From positions 120,313,354 through 120,377,353 of the forward strand of contig OX578142.1 of the NCBI GenBank assembly GCA_951213105.1: a DNA stretch of 64,000 nt. Direction: 5' to 3'. The position numbers and the translations under genes were made by a program. The notes beneath the pieces were generated by a model that ran no database searches, was not told the DNA's origin, and worked only from the letters and a program-made list of their open reading frames with translations. This DNA comes from Amaurobius ferox (lineage: Eukaryota > Arthropoda > Arachnida > Araneae > Amaurobiidae). Shown piece by piece: positions 1 to 18,840 of this stretch (position 1 is its first letter; each line of letters opens with the position of its first letter).

Positions 1-183
1 TATTAAAAAGATCTTTAAAATCAAAAGTTTGAAATCCTATTATTTTTCTAAGAGATGTTAATTTATTCTTTAATTCTTTACTATTATTTAGAATATGGTA
101 ATTATTGCTAGTCTGGCTTAAACTATTATTTATTAGATTTAAAGAATTTAGTAATAATTTACTCGCAGTAGTAGAGTAATCAT

Positions 184-636
184 TATGAAAAGTCATTTAC
201 TTCAATAGATTATACTTTTTACAGATATGTTGATGATCTGATTTGCTTAGTACATACAGAAAATTATCTCATAGATATAGATAACTATCCAGACAATTTG
301 GAATTAATTCCTAATGAAGCTATTAGTAAAAATGTTAATTTTTTGGATTTAAATCTTTTTATTGATCCTTCTAATAGAATTGTTACAAATTTATATGATA
401 AAAAAGACTTTTATAATTTTAATATTAATAAAATCTTACCATTTAATTCCTGTTACTCGATTCAATTGTTTAGAAATATTATACTTAATCAGCTTTTTAG
501 AATTTATAGATTATCTGATAAAAAATTTCATGCTATGCATATCAATAATCTCAAAATTACTAGCAATTTATATAAATATCCCTCTTATTTAGTAAATAGT
601 ATTGTTAAAAAATTTAAAATAGCTGGATTTTTATAA
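184..636 (+). pseudogene. Naiad RT C-terminal fragment (copy A)
   Basis: An open stretch of about 150 codons with no in-frame stop, ending at TAA. It contains the RT catalytic box YVDD (near 229-240) and the FLDLN motif that also occurs in the intact element at 13846-16485 as FLDLS. The upstream fingers and palm motif A are missing in this orientation because of the inversion at about 188, so this is a fragment and not a working gene. The C-terminal tail of about 40 residues is deleted in copy B. Confidence 0.75.
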
Positions 637-1478
637 TTCTTTTCATAGTATCTTATATTAGCCAGACATCTCCATTCTCTTGTATTTTTTTTTTTTACAT
701 TCTCTTCCGCTTCAGCATTACTATTATTTGCCCCTCCTTTTAGTAGCTCTTTTCGTATATTAATACTTTTTCTTAACATTTCGCTTAACTGTTTTTCAAT
801 TCTTATGAATGGCAACAGTAAATGGTTTTTTTATTTTTTATTTACACTGGTCTCTTCTATCAGTGTTCCCGGTATCGACTCGATTGTACATACGCTGTGC
901 CTTTTCCAGGTATTCATTTTTTCTTTTTTATTCCTTCTTTATGTATGTCGTCCAAGTAGAAATAGTTTATAGATATAATCTATCTATTTCTTCAGAAACA
1001 TACATTTTTGTGTTTACTTCTACAAAAAACTTGGACATGATTAGATTTTTGTAGAGGTTAACAATTCATGATTTAGGCTTAGAGCCTCGTCCACGTGTAT
1101 AGCGTTTGTGCTTGATTTCGTTTGTTATACTTTTTTCGATTCCATACCTTTGTATTATGATATTTTTCATTGACTTGTTGATTCGATATTTATTTTATTT
1201 ATTTATTTTTCCATTTGCTTGAGGATTAGTTGATTTTTACTTTTGTTTTGTAAGCCAGTTAGATAGTTGAATTTAGTTTAAGTTTTTCTTTTTTTGTTTC
1301 CATACCTTTGAATTTTGTTGATTTTCTGTAACTTGATAGCTTGTGTTTTGTATTTTTTATCCATTTGATTGATGATTTGCTGTATTATATTTTATTCTGT
1401 AGGTGTTTTAAAAAGTTAGGTTTATCGTGTTACATCTTCTTACTTTTCGTTCATTGGATTTTCAAACTACTATTATTA
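637..1478 (+). other. Naiad copy A 3' UTR
   Basis: Non-coding and T-rich. It aligns with 8821-9222 of copy B, including the conserved words TTTATAGA, CATTTTTGTGTT, CCACGTG and CATTGGATTT. It contains the structured RNA candidate at 950-1036. The last clear match to copy B is near 1477. Confidence 0.65.
950..1036 (+). ncRNA. Putative structured RNA element in Naiad 3' UTR (copy A)
   Basis: A three-way-junction fold can be drawn by hand. The outer helix is 950-957 with 1029-1036 (8 bp, GTCCAAGT/ACTTGGAC). Hairpin 1 is 958-965 with 984-991 (8 bp), a UUU bulge at 966-968, then 969-974 with 978-983 (6 bp) and a 3-nt loop. Hairpin 2 is 996-1000 with 1011-1015, plus CA/TG inside. Copy B (8877-8959) keeps the same plan with different bases in the helices. 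The function is unknown; recognition by the element's own RT is one possibility. Confidence 0.55.
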
Positions 1479-2405
1479 TTGAAATCATTTTATTTATGAG
1501 CTGCATTTGCGCAATAAATTAAATGTATTTTGCATTTTCAATCAATTTACTTAATAACTTTAAATTCTTTATTTAATCATATTTGCATAGTATCCTTCAT
1601 ATTTTAGTAAGCTATAGTATCTATATATATATATAAATTATATATAATTATTAGAAAGATAAAATAATAACCAATTCCAAATAATTACGAAAATTAAATC
1701 AATGAAATCACCAAAGCAGTTAAACCACAACTGAAATGCCGAAAAAGAAATGAACAGCACTAGCTTAAATTGGAGGTTAATTAGACTAGATTCTTCATCA
1801 GGTCTGAGCATCCAACCCTAATTAATCCAAACAAATGCTTGTTTCAGGTATAGCAATAGTAAGTTACAATAAATGCCATAAACGCAGACTACAAGCATTA
1901 ATAGGGAAAAAATTGAAAAATTGTTAATAAATCAAGTATTACCAAGAACCATGAGGCTGGAACACTGTATACATGTGCAGTGAAGGCAAGCAGTTGTAAT
2001 TGAATGAAAAAAGTTGAGATGCATGCAAGAGAAGGAAAAGAAAATAAACCATGGAATCAGAGGGGAACAAAGAATAGAAAGGACCTCCACAGAAACCCAT
2101 CGAGGGAGTTCCAGGGAGAAAGGTAAATAGGATGAACAGGAATCATAGATGAAAAAATCTTAGTAAAAAGTGATTCACAAGAGAAATGAATAAACGAGTA
2201 TGCCACTAACACCATTAACAAGGGGCTCAAATCGTTATTACAAACTGGCTAAAGTTGCATATTTTTAGCGAAAATAGTTTTCAAAACATTAAATATTTAT
2301 GTATCTTATTATCTAATTATTTTCTAATTTTTTGTTTTTCAATTTTTTTTGTTTATTTTATTATTTTTTATTTTTATATAATCACATAATTAATAATAAT
2401 AATAA
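1479..2405. other. Non-coding; microsatellite and possible 3' UTR of antisense Naiad-like copy D
   Basis: There are no supported genes. A short (TA)n tract lies at about 1618-1660. On the minus strand 1660-2405 follows directly after the copy D coding remnant and could be its 3' UTR, ending at the TA tract; this is inference. Position 1792-1804 carries a 13-mer whose complement, GACCTGATGAAGA, recurs at 9832-9844. Confidence 0.35.
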
Positions 2406-3300
2406 TTAGTTTTTTTTATTAGGTTTTTTTTTATTTTTTTTTATATAGCAGCCATAATTGTGAATATTGTCTAGGATTATATCGAGTGGTAGTTGATACA
2501 CTGAGTTGATAATATTAATTACAAATTTGGGAAGATATGCATTATTAGTTACAGTATTTAATAATTCTATAAAATGTGCTAATTTATAATTATCATCACA
2601 AATTTTATTTATTCTAAGAACCAGGTTTGATGTAATATTTTTAAACACTGATATATGCAAACAAGATTTAAAATGTTGAATTTTAGGAGTATTAAAATTA
2701 AAATCTACTCTTTTATCATATAAGTTTATAGCCAGATTACAATTTTGTAAATCTAAATTTAAATCTAAAAAGTTTGCAACATTAAAATCATTATTACTTT
2801 CATTTAATTGTAAATTATTAAGCTAAAAGTTAAATACAATAGAATTATTATTATAGGATATGCATAATATATCATCTAAATATCTATACATGTGTATATT
2901 ATGCAAACTGTGATTATAGTTTTTTTTTTATAGAAGTATAAATATAGATTAGCCAATAATGATGAGGCACACCCCCTTGTGGGATACCAAACTGTTGCTT
3001 ACAAAATGAACCACCATGTTGAATATAATTCTCATAGAGTGAAATTAAGTAAATAAAGGAATTATGAATATTTTGGATAATATTATATTTTTCCAAAATT
3101 TCTAAAATAATTTTATAAAGATCATCTATATCAATATTATTGAACAAATTTTTAAACTCAAAGGCATAAATACTATGGACTTTAATAAGAGTTTTTAATT
3201 TTTAACTAATTCAAAACATTTTTTTCATAATATGACTACTATTTGAAATGTCATCTGAAAAAAAAATTTCATTTAGAATTTTTAGCAATAATTACCAGCA
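2406..3300 (-). pseudogene. Naiad-like reverse transcriptase remnant (copy D)
   Basis: Minus-strand fragments read, in order, the RT motif A region (LFNNIDIDDLY, about 3147), the GIPQGG motif B, a YLDD catalytic box (about 2877-2888), and the FLDLNL and NLYDK segments, ending at 2406. The order and spacing match the RT of the intact Naiad at 13846-16485. The frame is broken by at least two frameshifts between motifs B and C and by a TAG near 2824. It is a diverged lineage, with LDD rather than the VDD of the other copies. Nothing 5' of the RT fingers is visible. Confidence 0.7.
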
Positions 3301-3589
3301 TTAATTAGTAAGGTAAGAAATATGCCCATATACACTCATGTCCAAAAGTTAAGCATAATTCGTAAAATGCGAAAAATTCGGAGTTAATATGGATACAATG
3401 GTTCACAATCAGTTGTGGAGAATCGTGGAATGAAGGTAAATCATTGTGCATGTGCAAAACAGTTCACTCGACGTCGATATGCGCAAAGCACCCGCGCACG
3501 TCGGAACGAGTATAAAACGAGCTCGAGCGGCATGACCAGTTGAAGCAGAATTTCGCAATTGCTGTGGTAAAGAAAGATCAATCATGCAT

Positions 3590-4865
3590 AAAGCATTGAT
3601 TATGAAACACTTTCTAACTTCATTGCAATTTCATTTAAACATCTCTAAAATGCGATACATTCCTAGGTAATATTTTGAAAATTATCACAATACTACATTA
3701 ATTTATTACATTTGAAAACTTAAAACTTCATCGACAAAAATGAACTTCATTCAAATGACGGCATTGAAATATAAATTGCCTCGTTCAAACATCTCTAAAA
3801 TGCAACACATTCCTCGGTAATATTTTTAAAATTATCATAATACTACAAAAATTCATTATATTTGAAAACTTCATCGACAGAAATTTATTCAAATGACGTC
3901 ATCGAAATATAACACGCCTGGCTCTCTCTATAAAAGCAGCATTTCATTCATAAACATTTTCCCATTCATTTCATTCATCACAATACTATATAATAATTTA
4001 TTTTATTTAAAATCTTAGACCATGGAATTACAAGTAATTAAACTCTATTCTTAAAACTTTATCGGAAACATCGTCTGCTTCTCTGTGTAAAATCAATGAA
4101 TTCATATCAGCTATATTGCAGACTCCATGAGCTAAATAATTTTGCGTTAAAGAAATGCAGCAATTCTTATACAACTCGTTCTACATATTTTGCTGTTTAC
4201 ATTTTTCATAAGTGAAAATTAGGCTTCGTTGTAGAAATAATCAAATTTCTATGATCATTTAAACTCAAATATATTGTAATTGCGTTGTTTCAGTATGTAG
4301 GTGCACAGAATTTAAGCAAAAATAAAGCGGTTTTAGGACGGATACAACACTCAATATGAATTAAAAAGAACTTTAAAAATCACGATTTTGACACAAGATG
4401 GATGTCATGTTTCATTTTGAAGTGGGTCACATGATCTTTTCATATAATGGTCACATAATCACTTCATATAAAAGGTGTAATTATTATTTTAATTTTTATT
4501 TTAAAAACTACTGAATATATTTTGCTGAAATTTTTTTTATATATTTTATGGGATAATTTGAATATTTTCTAAAATTTTCGAAGCAATTTGTGAATTTTAA
4601 ATCCGCTTAAAAAATGTTTGAAAAATTAGGTCCCATAGGGTTCAATGTATTTCATTTTTTCAACCCGGGTTCAATCCAAAACTAATTGGGTGATATTATA
4701 TATTTATATTCCCATAGGTCCCACTGACTGTCTGAACAACATACTGAAATTCCATTTTGATAAAGTCATTTTACGGCAGTTATCGTGCTAACGGACAGAC
4801 AGACAGACAAAATGAACAATGTCATAAACACTTTTCAACTTTGTTGTAAAGTGTTAAAAACGACG
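3590..4865. repeat. Probable nested non-coding insertion with an internal ~140-bp direct repeat
   Basis: This separates the Tc1 leader (3340-3585) from the transposase coding region (about 4881). It contains two diverged direct copies, about 3634-3780 and 3784-3900, both starting with AAACATCTCTAAAATGC and ending with GAAATATAA, and a TATA-like CTATAAAAG at about 3938. The right part ends in a (CAGA)n run at 4793-4808 typical of dispersed invertebrate repeats. The exact borders and class are unresolved. Confidence 0.4.
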
Positions 4866-4880
4866 AAAGATGTCACAAAG

Positions 4881-5889
4881 ATGCCAACTGGACATGTTTT
4901 TGAAGGGACAAATTATTGGAATGTTGGAATCCAGTCGATCCCAAACGGAAGCGTCTCGAATTCTGAATGTGCCTCAGTGTGTGATCTCCAGACTCTGACA
5001 GAGGTTCCAAACTACTGGAGATGTTACCCGACAACCAGTACCAGGTCGGCCAAGGGTAAGAACCGCTCGGCAAGACCGATATTTGGTGATAACTGCTGGA
5101 CGTCAAAGGAACCGTTCTGCCAGATAACTGGGTTCAGCCCTGACAACCGCACAGGAGTCACTGTTTCGAGACAAACTGTTTACAGGAGACTTAGACAGTT
5201 TGGTCTCTATGATGCCAGACGACCAGCAGTTTGCATCCCCCTCAGCACAGAAACGCACGCGTTTACAGTGGTGTTTGGAACATCGACAGCGGCGTGGACA
5301 ACAGTAGTGCAATGTCATGTTCAGTGACGAGTCCAGGTTTAGCCTGCAAACTGATTCTCGTCGTACCACGATCTGGAGAGAACGTGGAACGCGGTTTCAC
5401 CCGGGAAACATCACGGAAAGGCATCGTTTTCTATTTGGAGGACATCATGATGGACGGCCGCAAAGACCTCCACATCTTTGACACAGAGTCGGTTACCGGT
5501 CAAAGATACAGAGACGAAGTCCTTGAACCTACCGTTCGATTGTTTCGAGGTGCTGTTGACCCGGATTCCATATTCATGGATTATAACGAGCCTCCTCACA
5601 GTGCGGCCTTGGTCGACGACTTCTTTCAAACTGAAGATATCCAGCACATGCAGTGGCCTGTCAACTCTCTTGATCTGAATCCAATAGAGCATGTGTGGGA
5701 TATGCTCGGGAGACATCTTGCAGCACTCCGTTCTCTTGCAGCACTCCATGCTCCGTTCCGGGATTAAAAACTGCTCTCCGTGAGACTTGGAACTCTTTGA
5801 GCGCACAACTCATCCAAACCCTCATCGAAAGTATAGGAAATCGTTGGGCAGCATGCATGGCTACCCGAGGTTCCCACACATCGTATTAA
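4881..5889 (+). pseudogene. Tc1-like transposase, inactivated
   Basis: Reading through all three frames gives a DD34E-type transposase: an N-terminal helix-turn-helix region, SDESRF (first Asp, about 5320-5335), then a segment aligned to the usual DDN motif, LDLNPIEHVW (Glu, about 5670-5700) and a normal C-terminus ending at TAA 5887-5889. At least two frameshifts break it. The second catalytic Asp is replaced: the motif reads MDYNEPPH where family members have MDDN (about 5575-5590). A short duplication of a Leu-Ala-Ala-Leu segment follows. It cannot encode an active enzyme. Confidence 0.8.
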
Positions 5890-6127
5890 ACTACAGCATC
5901 ACATTTTTTTAATCATTCTGTTTCACTGAGTCTGACACACGTATTGTGACCCTTTTTCTTTCAACCCTTTTCTTTGGATAATAAAACTCGTTATTATCCT
6001 TGTTTTGCATTGTTTCCTTCTTCTATAACCCTATTACACCCACACACCGCGTTTCCTTCTATTCCGATGTAGATTTCCTGAAATTTTCACATAAACAGCA
6101 ACTATGCTTAACTTTTGGACATGAGTG

Positions 6128-6289
6128 TATATATATAACAATATATATGCATATATATATATATATATATATATGCATATATACATATATATGTATATAT
6201 ATATATACATATGTATATATACATATATATACATATGTATTATATATATATATATGTATATATATATACATATGTTATATTTCAGTGCA
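6128..6289. repeat. (TA)n-rich tract with CATATATG palindromes
   Basis: Simple TA/TATG-rich sequence between the right end of the Tc1-like element and the next mariner fragment. It is low-complexity and any apparent reading frames in it are meaningless. Confidence 0.9.
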
Positions 6290-6649
6290 CTGAAAGACAG
6301 GCACCAGCACTGAAAGACGCCTTACGGCAGGAGGTAGCATGGCCGTTGATATACTGTTTCATGCTGTATCAGCCGTAATACCGCGACTGCACTCAGTACT
6401 GGAATGTGGTGGTGGACACATTGAGCACTTGCAGCTGTAAATCATGCTGAAATAAAATATCTCATTTCACAATTATTAACTCGCATTGTTTTCTTTGAAG
6501 CAGTGTCCCCTAGTGTCGAGATTTTGAACTATTTTCTTTTCATGTCATACAAAATCCCCAACCACGGTGAATATTAATCTGCAAACAGCATGTCTCTCCG
6601 CCTGATATTTTTATAGCGTTTTACTTTTGCTCCGAACTTTTGAATCACC

Positions 6650-6651
<2 letters not shown>
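6290..6651 (+). mobile_element. 3' end of a mariner-like element
   Basis: The segment 6369-6440 reads [19 protein letters not shown] followed by TAA, the characteristic C-terminus of arthropod mariner-like transposases, with a frameshift just upstream. About 190 bp further on, TTTTGAATCACCCTG ends next to TA at about 6649-6652; its complement CAGGGTGATTCAAAA is the terminal repeat. The 5' part is gone, cut off in the (TA)n tract. Confidence 0.65.

Positions 6652-6690
<39 letters not shown>
6652..6690. repeat. (TA)n microsatellite
   Basis: Pure TA repeat. It marks the 5' border of Naiad copy B, which has another TA tract at its 3' border. Confidence 0.95.
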
Positions 6691-6695
<5 letters not shown>

Positions 6696-6699
6696 TTTC

Positions 6700-8819
6700 T
6701 TCCTACTTATAATATAATTGAATATAAAAACTTTGCTCATCATGGTTTTGAAAATATAAATACATATTTTGGATATAAAAACAAATACTGCTGATAGAAT
6801 GGTCATTGAAAACTTCTATATTAAATCACAATGTACTCTTTTTCCATATGGATTAAATCAATTATATCTCAATGGTAATATTGTAAAATATAATTTTGTA
6901 GATAATAAATATTCTATTTATAATCACCTGTTTTTTAATCCTCTTTTACATAATAGTAATTCTGCTAAACTCAAAAGATTTAAATGCGGTAAAGGAAATT
7001 CCCCCCAACATGATTTTAAAGCTGAGATTAAAAGTATGCATCAACATTTTAACAACACATTTTAATGGAAATTTATAAAATCATGGGTATTTGCGGTTAA
7101 GAAAAAACAATTAAATACAGTTTATGCTATTTTCTTAAAGTTAAATCTTACTAATGAACATTTTAATCATATTTTCTATGATTTGCTCATTACTAGATCA
7201 AAATATTTAAAAATAAAACTTAATCAATTTCATAATAATAACTGTTCTAATTCTTATTGTGTAATATCTTTTAAGCATTCTATTTATAATTCTATAAACT
7301 TTAAGAATTTATTTAATCATTTTCATCATTTATTGCCTGTAAAAGATTTGAATGTTACTAAAACTTTTAAATACAACAAGCCTATTGGAAGAACCATTTT
7401 TAATTACAATGCAATTTCAAAATCAGTCGACAAAGATTCCTCAACAAATGTAGATGGTGAATGTATTTGTAGTGTTGATAATTATGCTAATTTTATAAAT
7501 CCACACTTGGGGCATATAGTTACTGGAGAGAGACTTAGCCATTGTTAAAGATAAATCTTTAAGAACTATAATGTCATTTGGTATTAAATTCAGGTTACCT
7601 TCATGTAATAATTCAAAACAAGTCTTAAAGTCAATCAATCTTGACCTTGATAAATATATTTATGGATTAGCTTCTAAATATGCTCAACCTTTAGAGGCAT
7701 TTAATATGTGGAAATTTACTATTTTAAGATCTATTAAAAATGCCATTTGTAGTATCAATTTATCTAGATCTATATATAATATGGATAATATAAAACACTC
7801 TGTTAATGATTTACATAGATCTTTTGTTATTACTTATGCTGATAAAGCCTCTAATAATTTTGCTATTATTTGTAAAAAATTCTATATACAATATCTGTTA
7901 GATTATTTAAAAAATGACAGTCTATTTAAACTTGGTTCACAGTCTGTTAATAGTATCAAATTGAAAATTATCAATATGTATAGTGATTTAGATATTAATA
8001 ATAAATTTTTGAAATTTCCATATATTGTGCTTATACCTAAATTTCATAAAAATCCTATTAAATTTAGAACTGTAACTAGTGGTCATAATTCATACTCTAC
8101 TACTGCTAGTAAATTATTACTAAATTATTTAAATGTACTAAATAGTAATTTACGAGATTCTAGTGATAACTACATTATTCTAAACAATAGTAAAGAATTA
8201 AAAAATAAATTAAAAACACTTGGTAAAATAATAGGATTTCAAACTTTTGATTTTAAAGATCTATTTAATAATATTAAGATCACTGATCTTTATGATGTTA
8301 TTTTAGCTTTATATAATGCTTATATTACTAATCAATCTCATCTTACTAAATTTATCAATTTTCCTAAGCTTCTCCATTTTGTTCTTTTCAATATTATATT
8401 TTTCAAGGCAATAAATTATACTTACAAGTCTCAGGGGTTCCACAAGGTGGCTATAGTAGAAGTATGTTAGCTAATTTATACCTATATCAATATGAAAAAT
8501 TCTTTACTTCAACAGATTATAAAATTTACAGATATGTAGAGATGATCTGATTTGTCTTGTATTTACTGATAACTATGTCATAGATATAGATTTCTATCCG
8601 GATAATTTGGAATTAATACCTAATGAAACTACTATTAGTAAAAATATTAATTATTTGGATTTAAATCTAATTATAGAACCTACTAATGGGATAGTTACTA
8701 ATTTATATGATAAAAAAGATTTTTTTAAATTTAATATTAATAAATTATTACCATTTAATTCCTGCAACTCGATTCAATTGTTTAGAAATATTATACTTAA
8801 TCAACTTATTAATAATTAA
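6700..8819 (+). pseudogene. Naiad EN-RT polyprotein, copy B, broken
   Basis: The pieces in order are the end of the GIY-YIG domain (ENFYIKSQC.LFPYGLN, about 6800-6860), the linker, a CxC motif (ECICS, about 7460-7475) followed by HIVTG, the RT fingers (IPKFHKNPIKFRTVT), motif A (DFKDLFNNI, about 8250), a PQGG-type motif B (about 8440), a YVDD box (about 8530) and FLDLN-like YLDLN. At least four lesions are visible: a TAA at 7063-7065, a frameshift in a GAGAGA run near 7530, one lost G near 8437, and a 2-nt GA insertion in the YVDD codons near 8538. The C-terminal tail is deleted after 8808. Confidence 0.8.
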
Positions 8820-8876
8820 TATTTATATTTAATATTTATATTTCCTTTATTTTTTTCCAATCTTTATGCTTGTCGC

Positions 8877-8959
8877 CCATATAATACAAGTTTATAGACA
8901 AAATCTATCTTGTGTTACAGAAATAAGCATTTTTGTGTTCATTTAGAAGGGATATATGG
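8877..8959 (+). ncRNA. Putative structured RNA element in Naiad 3' UTR (copy B)
   Basis: This has the same plan as 950-1036. The outer helix is 8877-8883 with 8953-8959 (CCATATA/TATATGG, 7 bp). Hairpin 1 is 8886-8890 with 8909-8913 (ACAAG/CTTGT), the identical UUU bulge at 8891-8893, then 8894-8898 with 8904-8908 (ATAGA/TCTAT). Hairpin 2 is 8921-8924 with 8941-8944 and inner AA/TT and CA/TG pairs. The outer helix and the lower stem of hairpin 1 differ in sequence from copy A but remain paired, which is the signature of a selected RNA fold. Confidence 0.55.
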
Positions 8960-9220
8960 ACTTGAAAAATAATTTTTTCGAAATGAACTATTCTTAAGCC
9001 TAAAGCTCTTCCACGTGCAAGCATTTTTGCTTGATTTTTTTGTTTTCCTATTTTCATTCCTCTCCTTTGAAATTTGTTGATTGTCTTTGTCTTCATGACC
9101 TGCATTACGTATTATAATTTCCTCTTTATGGTTGAATTTCTTTTATTTCATTGTATTTTGTAGGCAAATTTTAAGATAATGTATTATGAGTTGCTACTTA
9201 CATTCTACCATTGGATTTAC

Positions 9221-9222
<2 letters not shown>

Positions 9223-9311
<89 letters not shown>
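9223..9311. repeat. (TA)n microsatellite, ~90 bp
   Basis: Uninterrupted TA repeat. It separates the 3' end of Naiad copy B from the left TIR of the next transposon. Confidence 0.95.
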
Positions 9312-11982
<2,671 letters not shown>

Positions 11983-12435: not shown

Positions 12436-13583
12436 TTACAAAGCTCGTTCAAAATGTTTTCCATCCATGCCAATACAGAACTGCATTCGTCTGATAACAC
12501 TTCTGTGCACTCGATCAAGTTCTTGATCGGTGATGTAATGACAACTATCTTGAAGGCGTTGTTGCAACTCTGTTTTATTTAAGGGAGGTGACAGATAAAC
12601 AGTTGCACGTAAACGACCCAACAAATAAAAATCCATAGGCATTAAATCAGGCAATCTAGGGGGAAATTCGACTGGCTCAATCAAGCCAATCCACTTGTCT
12701 GGAAACTCGTTATTTAACCAGTGTTTCACAACTGTAGTATGGTAAATTGGAGATCCGTCCTGTTGAAACCACACATGTGGTAATACTTTTAGGGGCAGTT
12801 CATCCATAAAATCAGGAATAACCGCATTCAAAATCTCATTAACATATCTGTCACCTGTCAACGTACCATCATACAGTATGGTTCCAAACAAACGGTTTCT
12901 GAAAATACTACACCACACATTCACAGAAAATTGCTTCTGATGATGAATATCACGTACCACGAATGGATTTGTGTCAGATCAGAAGTTCTCATTTTGAGGA
13001 TTTATGCATCCATCTTGTTTAAAACAGCATTCGTCAGCCCAAATTACGTTTTTCAGGAAAGAGGGATTTGCATCTTCCTAATTTAGAGCCCAATTACAAA
13101 CATCTAGACGACGTAGATAATCTATTGGCTCCTGTCCTTGCACACCACGAATGTTAAACGGATGCCATTTATTCAGTCTCAGTATTCTCCACACTGTTGC
13201 ACGTGGTACCTTCATTTCTGAAGCAGCGGTACGAACACTACTATATTGAAGACCCAGATCGTCCGACTCATCCAAAGGACTCGAGTAACTGCTTGGACGG
13301 CCGGAACACTACTATGTGGATGACTGCAAAAGTAAGCTAAAATATCAATTTCTACATTAGTTGAGTGAAGTCTGGGCCTACCTAGTCCACCGACACGATG
13401 TACGCTTCCTCTTTCATGCACTCGTTGCACCAATCGGGAAATAAATTTCCCAGAAGGATGTTGAGAAATGAGAAAAATACGTTGATATTCCCGTGCAGTT
13501 TCGTTAGCATTGCGATTGCATAACTGTACAGCATAAGCATTTCAAAAAGTTCTTCGTTGCTGTATTGCGATATGCTGTCCGTA
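12436..13583 (-). pseudogene. mariner-like transposase (DD41D spacing), dead, in R1
   Basis: Minus-strand fragments show an N-terminal HTH region (KFISRLVQRVHERGSVHRVGG; RPRLHSTNVEID), a second HTH (VPRATVWRILRLNKWHPFNI), WADECCF (first Asp), WFQQDG (second Asp) and PPRLPDLMPMDFYLLG (third Asp). Between the second and third Asp I count 41 residues, the DD41D spacing. The C-terminus ends CIGMDGKHFERAL. Lesions are an in-frame TGA at 13542-13544, a frameshift near 13270, a TAG near 13078 (ALN*EDANP) and a TGA before SDTNP near 12990. The same lesions occur in the second copy. Confidence 0.8.
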
Positions 13584-13682: not shown

Positions 13683-13865
13683 GAATGTATAAAAGTCCAC
13701 TGTAGATAGTTTTTTCAGTAATAGCAATATGGAATAGCATTCATCTTCGAGAGGCTGCTGTGTAGGAGTCAGTGGCGCAGCCAGAAATTCGTTCTGGGGG
13801 GGGGGGGGGGGGCGACGGGTCAAACCTCATTGTATATTATTACGCATGTCAAATGACAATATATT
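13683..13865 (+). repeat. 180-bp unit with a 17-G tract upstream of the Naiad ORF
   Basis: This is the unit that is tandemly repeated at 18661-19378. It begins GAATGTATAAAAGTCCACTG, contains GTGGCGCAGCCAG, then a run of 17 G (13796-13812), and ends with the ATG and first codons of the Naiad ORF. Position next to the ORF suggests 5' UTR or promoter sequence of the Naiad. Confidence 0.6.
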
Positions 13866-16485
13866 TGACAATATATTGAAGCAAGTGATGAGCAGTGTTT
13901 ATAAGCCTTGTACAATTGTCCATGATAAAGCTGTGACAAACATAAAAAATGTAAATTCTTTTGTAATAAATGACACGATCTATAATAGATCATCTTTTTT
14001 TAACGACTTTTATCAACACTACCACCATATGAAGAACTTCAAGTTCAAGAAATGCAATTCTAAGCGATGTAAGCTTTGTCCCGTAGCCAATCCACACCAA
14101 ATTTCTACAAAAAAGGACAATATAAAAATCTTTTGCAAAACTTTTAATGTGGTATATTGCATATCATGCCTTGCCTGTCAGGCGAAATATATAGGACAGA
14201 CGCAGAATTCCCTGAATATCCGTATAAATCTGCACCGAAGTCAAGTGGGCAAAATCCAACAGCTATCCACCAATAATAACTTAGAAGTACGACATTTTCA
14301 AGTACACCCCTTCAGCAATATTATGGTAACTATTATTGATATAGTACCAGACCTTTCTGAACGCTTGTGGTGGGAAAACACCCATATAAAGCAATATAAT
14401 TCTGCATATCCATATGGTCTGAATACTTTATTATTCAAGGAAAATTGCAATAAAGAAAGATGCAGGAATAGTAAAGCATACCCTCTCTTAGAAAATTCAA
14501 TACCTAAGAAAACTTATAGACACCAAAGAGGAAATAAAAAGCAACAATTTAATTATAACAAAACAGAAGAAAAAATCTCAGACTTCATAAAGACAGAAAT
14601 AACGGTGAAATTCGGATGGATCAAGAATATAGCCAACAGTATCAAAATCAAATACTTACAACGTATATGGAATTTTATTATAAATTTCAATTTAAGTGAA
14701 AATAACTGCAATACAGAAGATACAAACACTAATATAGACATCATTCTGGATTTGATTAAACTCAGAGCCGCAAAATATAATGTAGCACTTGAACCAAAAT
14801 ATCAAATTAACAAATCAAAAGAATTTTTTATCACAACATTTAAGAATAAAATGTTCGAAAATATTCCATTCAACCAAATATTACATAATATAGAAGAACA
14901 TCTTCCTTTGCCTAATCTAAATATTAAGATATCCTATCGCTTTGTAAGAACCAACGGAAGAAGATTATTCAACTACAATAAATTATGTAAAACCGTGTCT
15001 TCATTTAATATTGAATCCTGTCAATGTCATAAAAATATACATTGTGATCCCTACCACAAGCATATAATTACTGGAAACTTAGATTTTATAAAAGATAATA
15101 AACTCAAAAACTTATTACAACTTGGTACTAAGTACCGAATACAAGAATATAATGATATTTATAATGAATTTAATTACGATCTGGAAACCTTCATATACAA
15201 GATGGCTGTCAAACACAGTATACCTGTACAAACTTTTAACGCATGGAAATATGCCTTTTACAGTGCTTTTTGCCAATTCTACCCGAGAAGAAACAAGGAT
15301 TCTGGGAGTTCTCAATTTCCGTTTTCAATCAAACATTTTAATGAAGAATTCGTATTGACATACACCGACAAAATCGTATCGAATTTTGCATTCACGTGTA
15401 AAAAATTCTATGTCGATACTTTAACACAATGCTATAAGGATTGTGCCATGTATACATTAATTCCTAGCAACGAATCAATCATCACTAATAGAATAAAAGC
15501 ACTGTATAAAAGAATTGGTATGGATATTAAATCAGTAAAATTTCCATACTTGATCCTCATTCCCAAGTTACACAAAAAGCCAGTCAAGTTCCGTACTGTA
15601 ACAGTGGGATGCGGATCATACCTGGAACATGCAAATAAAAAACTTCTGAAATTACTCCAATATGTTATGACTGATATTAAGAAGCAAAACTCTATAATGT
15701 TAAAAAACGGACAAGAATTGATAGACCGACTGAAATTTTGCCATAAAGATTTAAACTTCAGAAGCTACGATTTCAGGGATCTGTTTAATAACATCGATTT
15801 AACAAACCTACAAATGATCTTGAAAGAATTACATGAAGAGTATAATTTAAAACCATATATAACTCTCAGAAGATATTTGGATTTGATTGAGTTGGTTTTA
15901 AATGAAAACATACTATATGACGGTATGCATTTCTACAAACAGGTCAAAGGCATACCCATGGGTGGTGCATGCTCATCAATATTGGCGGATATTTATCTAT
16001 CCAAATATGAAAGAGGAACCCATCTATTATCGGAAATACCTTATTTCCGTTATGTTGACGACGTGATATTAGGGGGTTATGCAAACACCCCTGACATAGA
16101 TTTTGCATTCTACCCAAGGGAATTGGACTTAATTGAAAACCCGATCAATGAGGATGGATCGACAGACTTCCTGGATTTGTCAATAAGAAAGCACCAACAG
16201 TATGGAATTTATACAACCATACACGACAAGAGAAATTCATACAATATCAAAATTAATAATATTATTGATTGGAATTCAAACCTCACTAAAAATATATTCA
16301 GAAATATTATTATCGGGTACTTCAGAAGAAACAGAAACTACAGTACTTTTAAAAAAGACTGCATTCATGAATGTAATAAAATAATAAATGATGCATTAAA
16401 AAGAAATTACCCTAGATATTTTTTACAACATTATTACTATTCCTTTTTCAAAGAAAGAAATTGTACATTGTTTGATTCTAAATGA
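13846..16485 (+). CDS. Naiad-type Penelope-like element polyprotein (GIY-YIG nuclease + reverse transcriptase), intact
   Basis: An uninterrupted 879-codon ORF. It encodes a retroelement protein expected to nick target DNA and prime reverse transcription from it. Domains in order: a Cys-rich stretch (C75, C78) and a GIY-YIG endonuclease at residues about 98-195 (VY 103-104, YIG 115-117, Arg126, Glu177) with extra Cys 105/108/111; a linker with a CxC motif (C392, C394; HHC residues follow); RT fingers (IPKLHKKP, about 572-579), motif A (DFRDLFNNID, 642-651), motif B (GIPMGGACS, 702-710) and motif C YVDD (736-739). A nuclease at the N-terminus with the CxC linker is the published hallmark of Naiad elements, unlike canonical Penelope elements with a C-terminal nuclease. 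The ATG at 13846 was chosen; the frame stays open upstream to a TAG at 13735 through the G-tract, giving a low-complexity extension that is unlikely to be real. Confidence 0.88.
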   Translation: MSNDNIFDNILKQVMSSVYKPCTIVHDKAVTNIKNVNSFVINDTIYNRSSFFNDFYQHYHHMKNFKFKKCNSKRCKLCPVANPHQISTKKDNIKIFCKTFNVVYCISCLACQAKYIGQTQNSLNIRINLHRSQVGKIQQLSTNNNLEVRHFQVHPFSNIMVTIIDIVPDLSERLWWENTHIKQYNSAYPYGLNTLLFKENCNKERCRNSKAYPLLENSIPKKTYRHQRGNKKQQFNYNKTEEKISDFIKTEITVKFGWIKNIANSIKIKYLQRIWNFIINFNLSENNCNTEDTNTNIDIILDLIKLRAAKYNVALEPKYQINKSKEFFITTFKNKMFENIPFNQILHNIEEHLPLPNLNIKISYRFVRTNGRRLFNYNKLCKTVSSFNIESCQCHKNIHCDPYHKHIITGNLDFIKDNKLKNLLQLGTKYRIQEYNDIYNEFNYDLETFIYKMAVKHSIPVQTFNAWKYAFYSAFCQFYPRRNKDSGSSQFPFSIKHFNEEFVLTYTDKIVSNFAFTCKKFYVDTLTQCYKDCAMYTLIPSNESIITNRIKALYKRIGMDIKSVKFPYLILIPKLHKKPVKFRTVTVGCGSYLEHANKKLLKLLQYVMTDIKKQNSIMLKNGQELIDRLKFCHKDLNFRSYDFRDLFNNIDLTNLQMILKELHEEYNLKPYITLRRYLDLIELVLNENILYDGMHFYKQVKGIPMGGACSSILADIYLSKYERGTHLLSEIPYFRYVDDVILGGYANTPDIDFAFYPRELDLIENPINEDGSTDFLDLSIRKHQQYGIYTTIHDKRNSYNIKINNIIDWNSNLTKNIFRNIIIGYFRRNRNYSTFKKDCIHECNKIINDALKRNYPRYFLQHYYYSFFKERNCTLFDSK

Positions 16486-16960: not shown

Positions 16961-18840
16961 CAGGGTGTCCCAAAAACATTCACCTCGGCTTTTATTCCTT
17001 AAATATTGATCTTAGACATATATAATAAATTACGAAGTTGCATAAAAAAGTACATAATTTTATGAAATCGGTAAAAATTTTCAGGGGATTAAATACAAAA
17101 TTTAAATTTTTATACAGCTCCCGTACAAAAACATTTCCAATGAGTAAAATGTGCCCCTTACACTAATAAGGTGATGTACAAAATTTCAGCATTTTATCAA
17201 AAAAAATCCCAGAGATATAAAAAGACAAAAATGCTGACTTTTCGACGCATCGACATGGGTTCTCAGAGGGGAAAAATCATGTAGGCAGATCGCGTTTCAG
17301 GGGTCATACATAAATTACGAAAGAAACAATGATTACATAAATAAATAATAATTTTGCTATTTATTGGTACAAAAGTATCTACACTGCGTAGAAAAAATAA
17401 CTTTAAGCAAAGATTACAAAGCTCGTTCAAAATGTTTTCCATCCATGCCAATACAGAACTGCATTCGTCTGATAACACTTCTGTGCACTCGATCAAGTTC
17501 TTGATCGGTGATGTAATGACAACTATCTTGAAGGCGTTGTTGCAACTCTGTTTTATTTAAGGGAGGTGACAGATAAACAGTTGCACGTAAACGACCCAAC
17601 AAATAAAAATCCATAGGCATTAAATCAGGCAATCTAGGGGGAAATTCGACTGGCTCAATCAAGCCAATCCACTTGTCTGGAAACTCGTTATTTAACCAGT
17701 GTTTCACAACTGTAGTATGGTAAATTGGAGATCCGTCCTGTTGAAACCACACATGTGGTAATACTTTTAGGGGCAGTTCATCCATAAAATCAGGAATAAC
17801 CGCATTCAAAATCTCATTAACATATCTGTCACCTGTCAACGTACCATCATACAGTATGGTTCCAAACAAACGGTTTCTGAAAATACTACACCACACATTC
17901 ACAGAAAATTGCTTCTGATGATGAATATCACGTACCACGAATGGATTTGTGTCAGATCAGAAGTTCTCATTTTGAGGATTTATGCATCCATCTTGTTTAA
18001 AACAGCATTCGTCAGCCCAAATTACGTTTTTCAGGAAAGAGGGATTTGCATCTTCCTAATTTAGAGCCCAATTACAAACATCTAGACGACGTAGATAATC
18101 TATTGGCTCCTGTCCTTGCACACCACGAATGTTAAACGGATGCCATTTATTCAGTCTCAGTATTCTCCACACTGTTGCACGTGGTACCTTCATTTCTGAA
18201 GCAGCGGTACGAACACTACTATATTGAAGACCCAGATCGTCCGACTCATCCAAAGGACTCGAGTAACTGCTTGGACGGCCGGAACACTACTATGTGGATG
18301 ACTGCAAAAGTAAGCTAAAATATCAATTTCTACATTAGTTGAGTGAAGTCTGGGCCTACCTAGTCCACCGACACGATGTACGCTTCCTCTTTCATGCACT
18401 CGTTGCACCAATCGGGAAATAAATTTCCCAGAAGGATGTTGAGAAATGAGAAAAATACGTTGATATTCCCGTGCAGTTTCGTTAGCATTGCGATTGCATA
18501 ACTGTACAGCATAAGCATTTCAAAAAGTTCTTCGTTGCTGTATTGCGATATGCTGTCCGTACAGGCTAATTACACTCTCAAAATGTAGCAGAAATGTGAA
18601 ATCATTAGCCAAGCCAAGACGCTTGCTTGCCTGGGACCGAAGGTCCCTCACGGCCACATCGAATGTATAAAAGTCCACTGTAGATAGTTTTTTCAGTAAT
18701 AGCAATATGGAATAGCATTCATCTTCGAGAGGCTGCTGTGTAGGAGTCAGTGGCGCAGCCAGAAATTCGTTCTGGGGGGGGGGGGGGCGACGGGTCAAAC
18801 CTCATTGTATATTATTACGCATGTCAAATGACAATATATT
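16961..18840 (-). repeat. Direct repeat R2, near-identical to R1
   Basis: 1880-bp second copy of 11983-13865 at a constant offset of 4978 bp until the G-tract, then 4975. It carries the same dead mariner with the same stop codons and frameshift. R2 follows the Naiad 3' UTR and TA tract, so the array reads R1, Naiad ORF, 3' UTR, (TA)n, R2. This is the head-to-tail layout expected of tandem Penelope-like insertions. Confidence 0.85.
17414..18561 (-). pseudogene. mariner-like transposase (DD41D spacing), dead, in R2
   Basis: Copy of the transposase remnant at 12436-13583 with identical visible lesions: in-frame TGA at 18520-18522, a frameshift near 18250, TAG near 18056 and TGA near 17970. Identity of the lesions shows that the duplication happened after the transposase died, so it was not made by mariner transposition. 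Confidence 0.8.

Follow-up and report, generated by a model that had tools for sequence, protein, structure and literature searches.

What kind of RNA fold follows the Naiad-like reverse transcriptase (RT) genes in the spider Amaurobius ferox, and what might it do for the retrotransposons that carry it? The question arises from a 64,000-nt stretch of contig OX578142.1 (120,313,354-120,377,353, forward strand; hereafter the window), in which the original prediction saw a covarying three-way junction shared by two diverged copies. Both copies, A and B, are indeed present at 950-1036 and 8877-8959. We propose that the feature is very probably a non-circularly permuted type-SGC hammerhead, in a derived form in A and B, situated in the inter-ORF region (3′ UTR/pseudo-LTR) of Naiad-like Penelope-like retrotransposons. 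All sequences discussed here come from one genome, and the genome-wide counts refer to its 3.56-Gb assembly.

The outer helix of the predicted junction exists: it is formed by GTCCAAGT/ACTTGGAC in A and by GTCCATATA/TATATGGAC in the B family, with both-sided changes across families. The same holds for its first hairpin with the UUU bulge (h1), both sides of which also change between families. The extent has to be revised, as copy A occupies 941-1064 (plus strand) rather than 950-1036, and position 950 is the first base past a predicted cut. Immediately upstream of the reported start lies one strand of a further helix, stem III, whose other strand is the 5′ half of the supposed second hairpin; both strands vary from family to family, as AUGUAUGU/ACAUACAU for A, AUGCUUGU/ACAAGCAU for B and GCCAGU/ACUGGC for G. 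Hairpin 2 is hence mostly one strand of this other helix (998-1005 with 941-948); an alternative, AAACA/UGUUU-like hairpin can nevertheless be drawn by eye in several families. Another helix, here termed the interaction helix, has its 5′ strand between the stem III 5′ strand and the outer helix, and its partner 3′ of the outer helix. Both stem III and the interaction helix cross the outer helix, and the three-way junction gives way to a chain of pseudoknots. The AAACA/UGUUU alternative hairpin (996-1015 in A, with counterparts in several families) consists of nearly invariant letters and would hide a GAAA box. It could represent an off state of the element; since its letters hardly vary, variation argues neither for nor against it.

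Three sets of letters are conserved around these helices: the outer helix is preceded by GUC or GUA and followed by CUGAnGA, or a variant at positions 3 and 8, and GAAA precedes the second stem III strand. Judged by their letters, these are the three hammerhead blocks in the order S-G-C, the outer helix is stem I, and h1 stands where a short linker would be. In copy A (all plus strand), the stem III 3′ strand AUGUAUGU (941-948), whose last U corresponds to U16.1 in hammerhead numbering, is followed by the predicted cleavage site between C949 (H17 of the GUC triplet) and G950, the base at whose equivalent some genomic copies start. Thereafter come the stem I 5′ strand GUCCAAGU (950-957, pairing with 1029-1036), h1 with its UUU bulge (958-991), inserted between stems I and II and covarying in its lower stem in families E and F, and the UUCA of the stem II 3′ strand (991-994). 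The GAAA box (G12 A13 A14 A15.1; 995-998) leads into the stem III 5′ strand ACAUACAU (998-1005), the 5′ strand of the interaction helix (1010-1028) and the stem I 3′ strand ACUUGGAC (1029-1036). The CUGAnGA-type box (1037-1043) reads AUGAUUA, with A3-U8 in place of the standard C3-G8; it is followed by the GA of the stem II 5′ strand (1044-1045) and the 3′ strand of the interaction helix (1045-1064), which pairs at -18.1 kcal/mol. Both stem II strands are short and weakly supported. The earlier statement that a hammerhead core is absent therefore holds for the usual block order only, and fails once the block order may vary.

Such a form has a precedent. The type-SGC, non-circularly permuted hammerhead was published in 2023, alongside which the usual types I, II and III correspond to the block orders CGS, GSC and SCG (PMC10085705). 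As set out in that article's main text, it comprises stems I-III and a further helix that connects stems I and II at their far sides; cleavage was demonstrated at the predicted site, all four helices of one sequence were tested by disruption and compensation, and 580 of 583 members of the published set have the standard core. The spider elements share with this type, including the HRIMA-1 group of that text, the S-G-C order, stems I-III, the I-II helix, the GAAA and CUGAnGA boxes and a predicted cut after UH. Unlike the description there, in which the linker between stems I and II typically measures 3 nt, they carry a hairpin of about 32-34 nt at this place, and most A and B rows have U-A or A-U at positions 3 and 8. 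Two other candidates were set aside: the canonical hammerhead types I, II and III, given the S-G-C block order and the lack of an Rfam match; and an HDV-like nested pseudoknot of the same strand topology, compared by eye and dropped after the hammerhead boxes were recognised. A telomerase-like pseudoknot was considered as well. Rfam returned nothing relevant, and specifically no hammerhead, either in positions 1-10000 at E≤10 or across the whole window at gathering scores.

The window holds three such elements, each next to remains of a Naiad-like gene on the same strand: upstream of copy A lies an ORF end (181-624, plus; tblastn identity of 77.9% over 149 aa), upstream of copy B a broken ORF (6690-8807, plus; five tblastn pieces of 82.6-93.3% aa identity), and upstream of the third copy, E, RT remains (2487-3201, minus; three tblastn pieces of 30-53% identity). 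Copy B (8866-8989, plus) is decayed, with GCCC replacing GTCC and GAAAT replacing GAAAC. Its parts are stem III (8866-8873/8923-8930), the predicted cut (8874/8875), stem I with one mismatch (8875-8882/8954-8961), GAAA (8920-8923), the box UUGAAAA (8962-8968) and an interaction helix of -13.5 kcal/mol (8934-8950/8973-8989). Copy E (1898-1769, minus) is more distant than A and B are and has a canonical core: stem III (1898-1891/1842-1835), the predicted cut (1890/1889), stem I with one mismatch (1889-1882/1809-1802), h1 (1880-1849), GAAA (1845-1842), CUGAUGA (1801-1795) and the interaction helix (1831-1810/1792-1769). An S-G-C descriptor, set once the families had been identified and applied to either strand, matches the window exactly twice, at A and E, and does not match copy B; 12 shuffled windows gave two matches in total, both scoring lower than those of A and E.

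Some further features of the window may be recorded here. An inverted piece of a Naiad-like ORF (aa 585-646, 74% identical) occupies 2-187, before copy A. Downstream of the ribozyme, A and B share a second block (1065-1125 and 8995-9045; in A, TTAGGCTTAGAGCC ... CCACGTG ... GCTTGATTT), whose folding is unremarkable. Two identical transposase-like ORFs of 174 aa (12436-12960 and 17414-17938, minus) lie 4,978 bp apart. Since the segments 900-1100 and 1720-1900 each occur three times on the contig at 100% identity with a spacing of 29,004-29,005 bp, the window probably lies within a tandem duplication of about 29 kb.

Across the genome, a pattern of the conserved parts of A and B finds 6,595 exact matches (reversed control, 0), some of them in tandem units with a period of 4,254-4,258 bp (two arrays retrieved). 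The copies retrieved with this pattern yielded further families of the same architecture, B2, B3, C and D, and a profile search of the retrieved loci added E, F and, weakly, G (E 0.15). A canonical-core pattern occurs at 6,107 places, again with none in the reversed control. In viral contigs the canonical-core pattern found two stretches (L142 and L143), whose stems I and III are incompletely paired and which we took as chance matches; among the phage matches listed (20 of 52), the best E was 0.04 and none reached at least 80% query coverage.

Could complementarity of this kind arise by chance among AT-rich, closely related repeats? The composition is AT-rich, and the minimum folding energy of copy B is ordinary (z -1.38; 20 of 200 shuffles as low), which is what such a reading expects; that of copy A lies beyond chance (z -3.90, 0/200). 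Against it stand the pairing statistics. In a family alignment of 17 rows, made from joined block windows and covering stems I and III and pair 3-8, 95.5% of cells are paired, as against 17-46% when the strands are slid by 1-3 columns; both sides change in 11 of the 17 pairs, a number reached by one of 500 shuffles, and the covariation score is reached by none of 500. We also applied a home-made, R-scape-like tree-aware test, in which substitutions are reshuffled along branches: five of the 17 proposed pairs have E<0.05 (two in stem III, two in stem I, and core pair 3-8), and when all 780 column pairs compete, only stem I pair 14-32 and core pair 3-8 are significant, both within the structure. 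At the family level, the tree-aware test thus speaks for stems I and III as well as for pair 3-8. For the interaction helix, the mean over the 17 rows is -15.9 kcal/mol (weakest, B2_L057 at -7.2), compared with -8.0 (sd 0.54; 0/500) for shuffled partners and -9.9 when rows are given each other's partners; 20 further rows range from -8.2 to -23.2 kcal/mol.

A second alignment looks inside the E/F group, leaving out G and A-D. Its 25 rows, 20 picked by eye for variety from about 100 canonical-core places plus five earlier loci, have 91.0% of cells paired over the full pseudoknotted structure, and both sides change in 20 of 49 pairs against 9.8 in shuffles (0/500). These changes fall in the lower stem of h1 (6/7), the main part of the interaction helix (8/15), stem III (2/8) and stem I (3/8); the three scored pairs of stem II have 74.7% of cells paired and no both-sided change, one of them failing in 14 of 25 rows. 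By the tree-aware test, three of the 49 proposed pairs are significant, two in h1 and one in the interaction helix (79-122), none lying in stems I-III; no pair is significant against all 11,175 column pairs. Taken with the descriptor scan and the empty reversed controls of both the A/B and canonical-core patterns, the pairing within families and within E/F and the energy of the interaction helix leave chance complementarity with next to no credibility. The suggestion that selection acts on the RNA structure is upheld by the covariation test at the family level, within this one genome.

The core letters sort the families. The S, G and C blocks stand in this order in all 18 representatives of families A-G, for which the anchors were set by the analyst and box letters change in three rows (B2_L057, C and D), and in all of 20 additional rows, which were selected by a pattern demanding that order. 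Core pair 3-8 is Watson-Crick in every one of the 18, as C-G in eight, U-A in eight and A-U in two. The standard core letters (CUGAnGA, GAAA, U16.1 and H17) are found in 6/6 representatives of E, F and G, and are absent from those of A, B, C and D: the A, B, B2, B3 and C rows have U3-A8 or A3-U8, the B1 row has a CCGAAGA box in which C3-G8 is kept but C replaces U4, the C row has an A at G5, and GATA replaces GAAA in the D row. On these letters, E, F and G are the likeliest active families. Since A and B, with U-A or A-U at 3-8, depart from the standard core, they may be slow, protein-assisted or decayed; for copies of A-D, our claim is that they probably derive from, or work like, a type-SGC hammerhead.

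One might extend decay to the whole genome and regard the element as an ancestral ribozyme now inactive in every family. The noncanonical 3-8 pairs of A and B and the C for U4 in one B subfamily would sit well with this; the 6,107 places with an exact canonical core, the compensatory changes inside the E/F group and the junctions at the cut site in A and B too, to which we now turn, would not, and we judge general inactivation to be decidedly improbable.

A (TA)5 run close to the stem I strand makes the 5′ end of a copy readable. In loci retrieved earlier, (TA)5 lies within 34 nt of 9 of 13 distinct A ends, 21 of 28 B ends and 2/2 F ends. For a larger set, we took (TA)5 at most 30 nt from the stem I strand (reversed-pattern controls: A 0, B 0, F 8+34 vs 466+73 real) and read the junctions by eye among the matches listed (the first ~100 per pattern), merging sliding duplicates. 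This left 23 distinct places for A, 25 for B, 26 for F and 39 for a control internal to h1. Among these listed matches, 22 of 74 junctions start exactly at the base after the predicted cut (A 10, B 5, F 7) and others one or two bases past it (A 2, B 5, F 3); the remaining 42 are either scattered farther upstream or ambiguous. The 10 of A include one ambiguous place (C2:14976214) and two with a duplication (C1:16285718 and C2:92976562), and in some of them AT-rich filler separates (TA)5 from the element; three of the seven exact-cut places of F, which reads TGTA at the cut, are ambiguous. Two B places (C2:93734559 and C2:93745845) resemble one duplicated event, and neither begins at the cut. 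Short duplications of the 5′ end near the cut were also seen at L135 (C2:92976562), C2:148860978 and C3:42054175, as if the RT had restarted on the same template end.

The h1-internal control, with its 39 listed places drawn from a shorter part of the genome, has more (TA)n junctions per length of genome than the cut region and has hotspots of its own, the largest taking 6 of 39 places (15%). Among the matches listed, the share at the cut is above this in each family (A 43%, B 20%, F 27%). In h1, the hotspots coincide with TA, ATA or TAT in the element itself ahead of the junction, and base-pairing of this short match with (TA)n may account for them. The letters at the cut are TGTC in A and B, to which that explanation does not apply, and TGTA in F, which is open to it. 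Since the control region also has hotspots, the junctions at the cut are support, short of proof. From the 22 cut-start copies, we retrieved ten, picked among plus-strand places: all are ORF-less, span the element from the cut to its 3′ end over 232-530 nt, and are followed by (TA)n; L132 and L137 among them are shorter than other members of their families. Such short copies from cut to 3′ end fit an RT that copies a self-cut RNA to its end.

The same copies bear on the first of the functions originally suggested, a structure for RT recognition or priming, according to which the fold is kept for binding the element's own protein in cis and its likeness to a hammerhead is an ancestral leftover or inactive. 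From the cut down to the (TA)n after the 3′ end, the ten short copies measure 232-530 nt; most A and B rows are without C3-G8; and a related Penelope-like element, by the portions of PMC11167929 consulted, starts reverse transcription inside the RNA and needs an RNA stretch thought to be bound by the protein. Yet binding alone would leave unaccounted for the conserved GUC/GUA, GAAA and CUGAnGA letters, the Watson-Crick exchange at 3-8 and the copies that begin at the predicted cut. We hence consider it rather unlikely as the whole explanation; RT-binding and ribozyme roles can coexist in one element. Among the original guesses, that of a degenerate ribozyme comes nearest to the type-SGC hammerhead preferred here.

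A tandem unit of the B family contains an 868-aa ORF, which, read by eye, has a GIY-YIG-like N-terminus, a CxC stretch and a C-terminal RT; these, and copies ending in (TA)n, are features shared with the Naiad clade. Two ORFs of the window were submitted to Pfam, which found RVT_1 in an open Naiad-like ORF of 879 aa (13846-16485, plus) and nothing in a 299-aa piece of copy B. This 879-aa ORF shares 32.4% identity with the 868-aa one over 836 aligned aa, and its 3′ flank holds no match to the S-G-C descriptor. The ORF of the B-family unit also bears on a SECIS element for selenocysteine insertion, another of the original suggestions. Its attraction lies in the selenocysteine that Craig et al. 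in 2021 reportedly described in spider Naiads; yet the 868-aa ORF is without an in-frame UGA and Rfam gives no SECIS match for positions 1-10000 at E≤10, because of which we give this reading virtually no weight.

On the type-SGC reading, the element runs, from 5′ to 3′, through the 3′ strand of stem III, UH (cut), the 5′ strand of stem I, h1, the 3′ strand of stem II and GAAA; then come the 5′ strands of stem III and of the interaction helix, the 3′ strand of stem I, CUGAnGA, the 5′ strand of stem II and the 3′ strand of the interaction helix. We envisage that self-cleavage of its transcripts would fall between H17 and the opening base of stem I, leaving a 3′ product that still contains the site at which genomic copies end 3′; reverse transcription of this product up to the cut end would give the short copies without an ORF. 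In tandem transcripts, the same cut would free unit-length RNAs. A broader proposition, to which we lend somewhat less than even credence, is that Penelope-like elements whose protein is itself permuted, with the endonuclease first, carry a permuted hammerhead too, hammerheads being general to endonuclease-bearing Penelope-like elements, and that the self-cut RNA is reverse-transcribed and sets the 5′ end of a large class of short ORF-less copies and, in full-length copies, possibly that of the 5′ pseudo-LTR.

How does this compare with ribozymes already associated with mobile elements? In the relevant sections of a review (PMC7761336), canonical Penelope-like elements and Terminons bear minimal type I hammerheads whose role is called a mystery. 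The putative hammerhead of the spider shares with these its place in the pseudo-LTR region; those described in these sections have the ordinary order and a minimal stem III (PMC7761336), whereas the present form is non-circular, its stem III is complete and one more helix is present. Likewise, retrozymes, as outlined in the same sections, are short ORF-less units made with a hammerhead; in contrast to them, the present units are parts of the autonomous element's own 3′ region and have a permuted ribozyme (PMC7761336). HRIMA-1 was found beside hairpin ribozymes in metatranscriptomes, with variants from RefSeq, metagenome and metatranscriptome searches, and differs from the present case, an animal retrotransposon with thousands of copies; the main text of PMC10085705 contains neither "animal" nor "spider", and "retrotranspos" occurs there in a reference only. 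Among the literature matches listed, which cover subscription journals thinly, no title or abstract describes a hammerhead of permuted order within a retrotransposon. Craig et al. in 2021 reportedly state in their abstract that Naiad-type elements are without canonical hammerhead motifs; a permuted hammerhead would escape ordinary searches.

The implications are several: (i) pseudoknot-free models, such as those of Rfam, miss elements of this kind; (ii) non-circular hammerheads have so far come from metatranscriptome elements of unclear biology, and an animal retrotransposon would supply them with a biological home; (iii) its thousands of copies would give a large natural alignment; (iv) with copies that begin at the predicted cut, a connection of self-cleavage to the RT template becomes open to direct test. 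The element could reveal what hammerheads do for Penelope-like retrotransposons.
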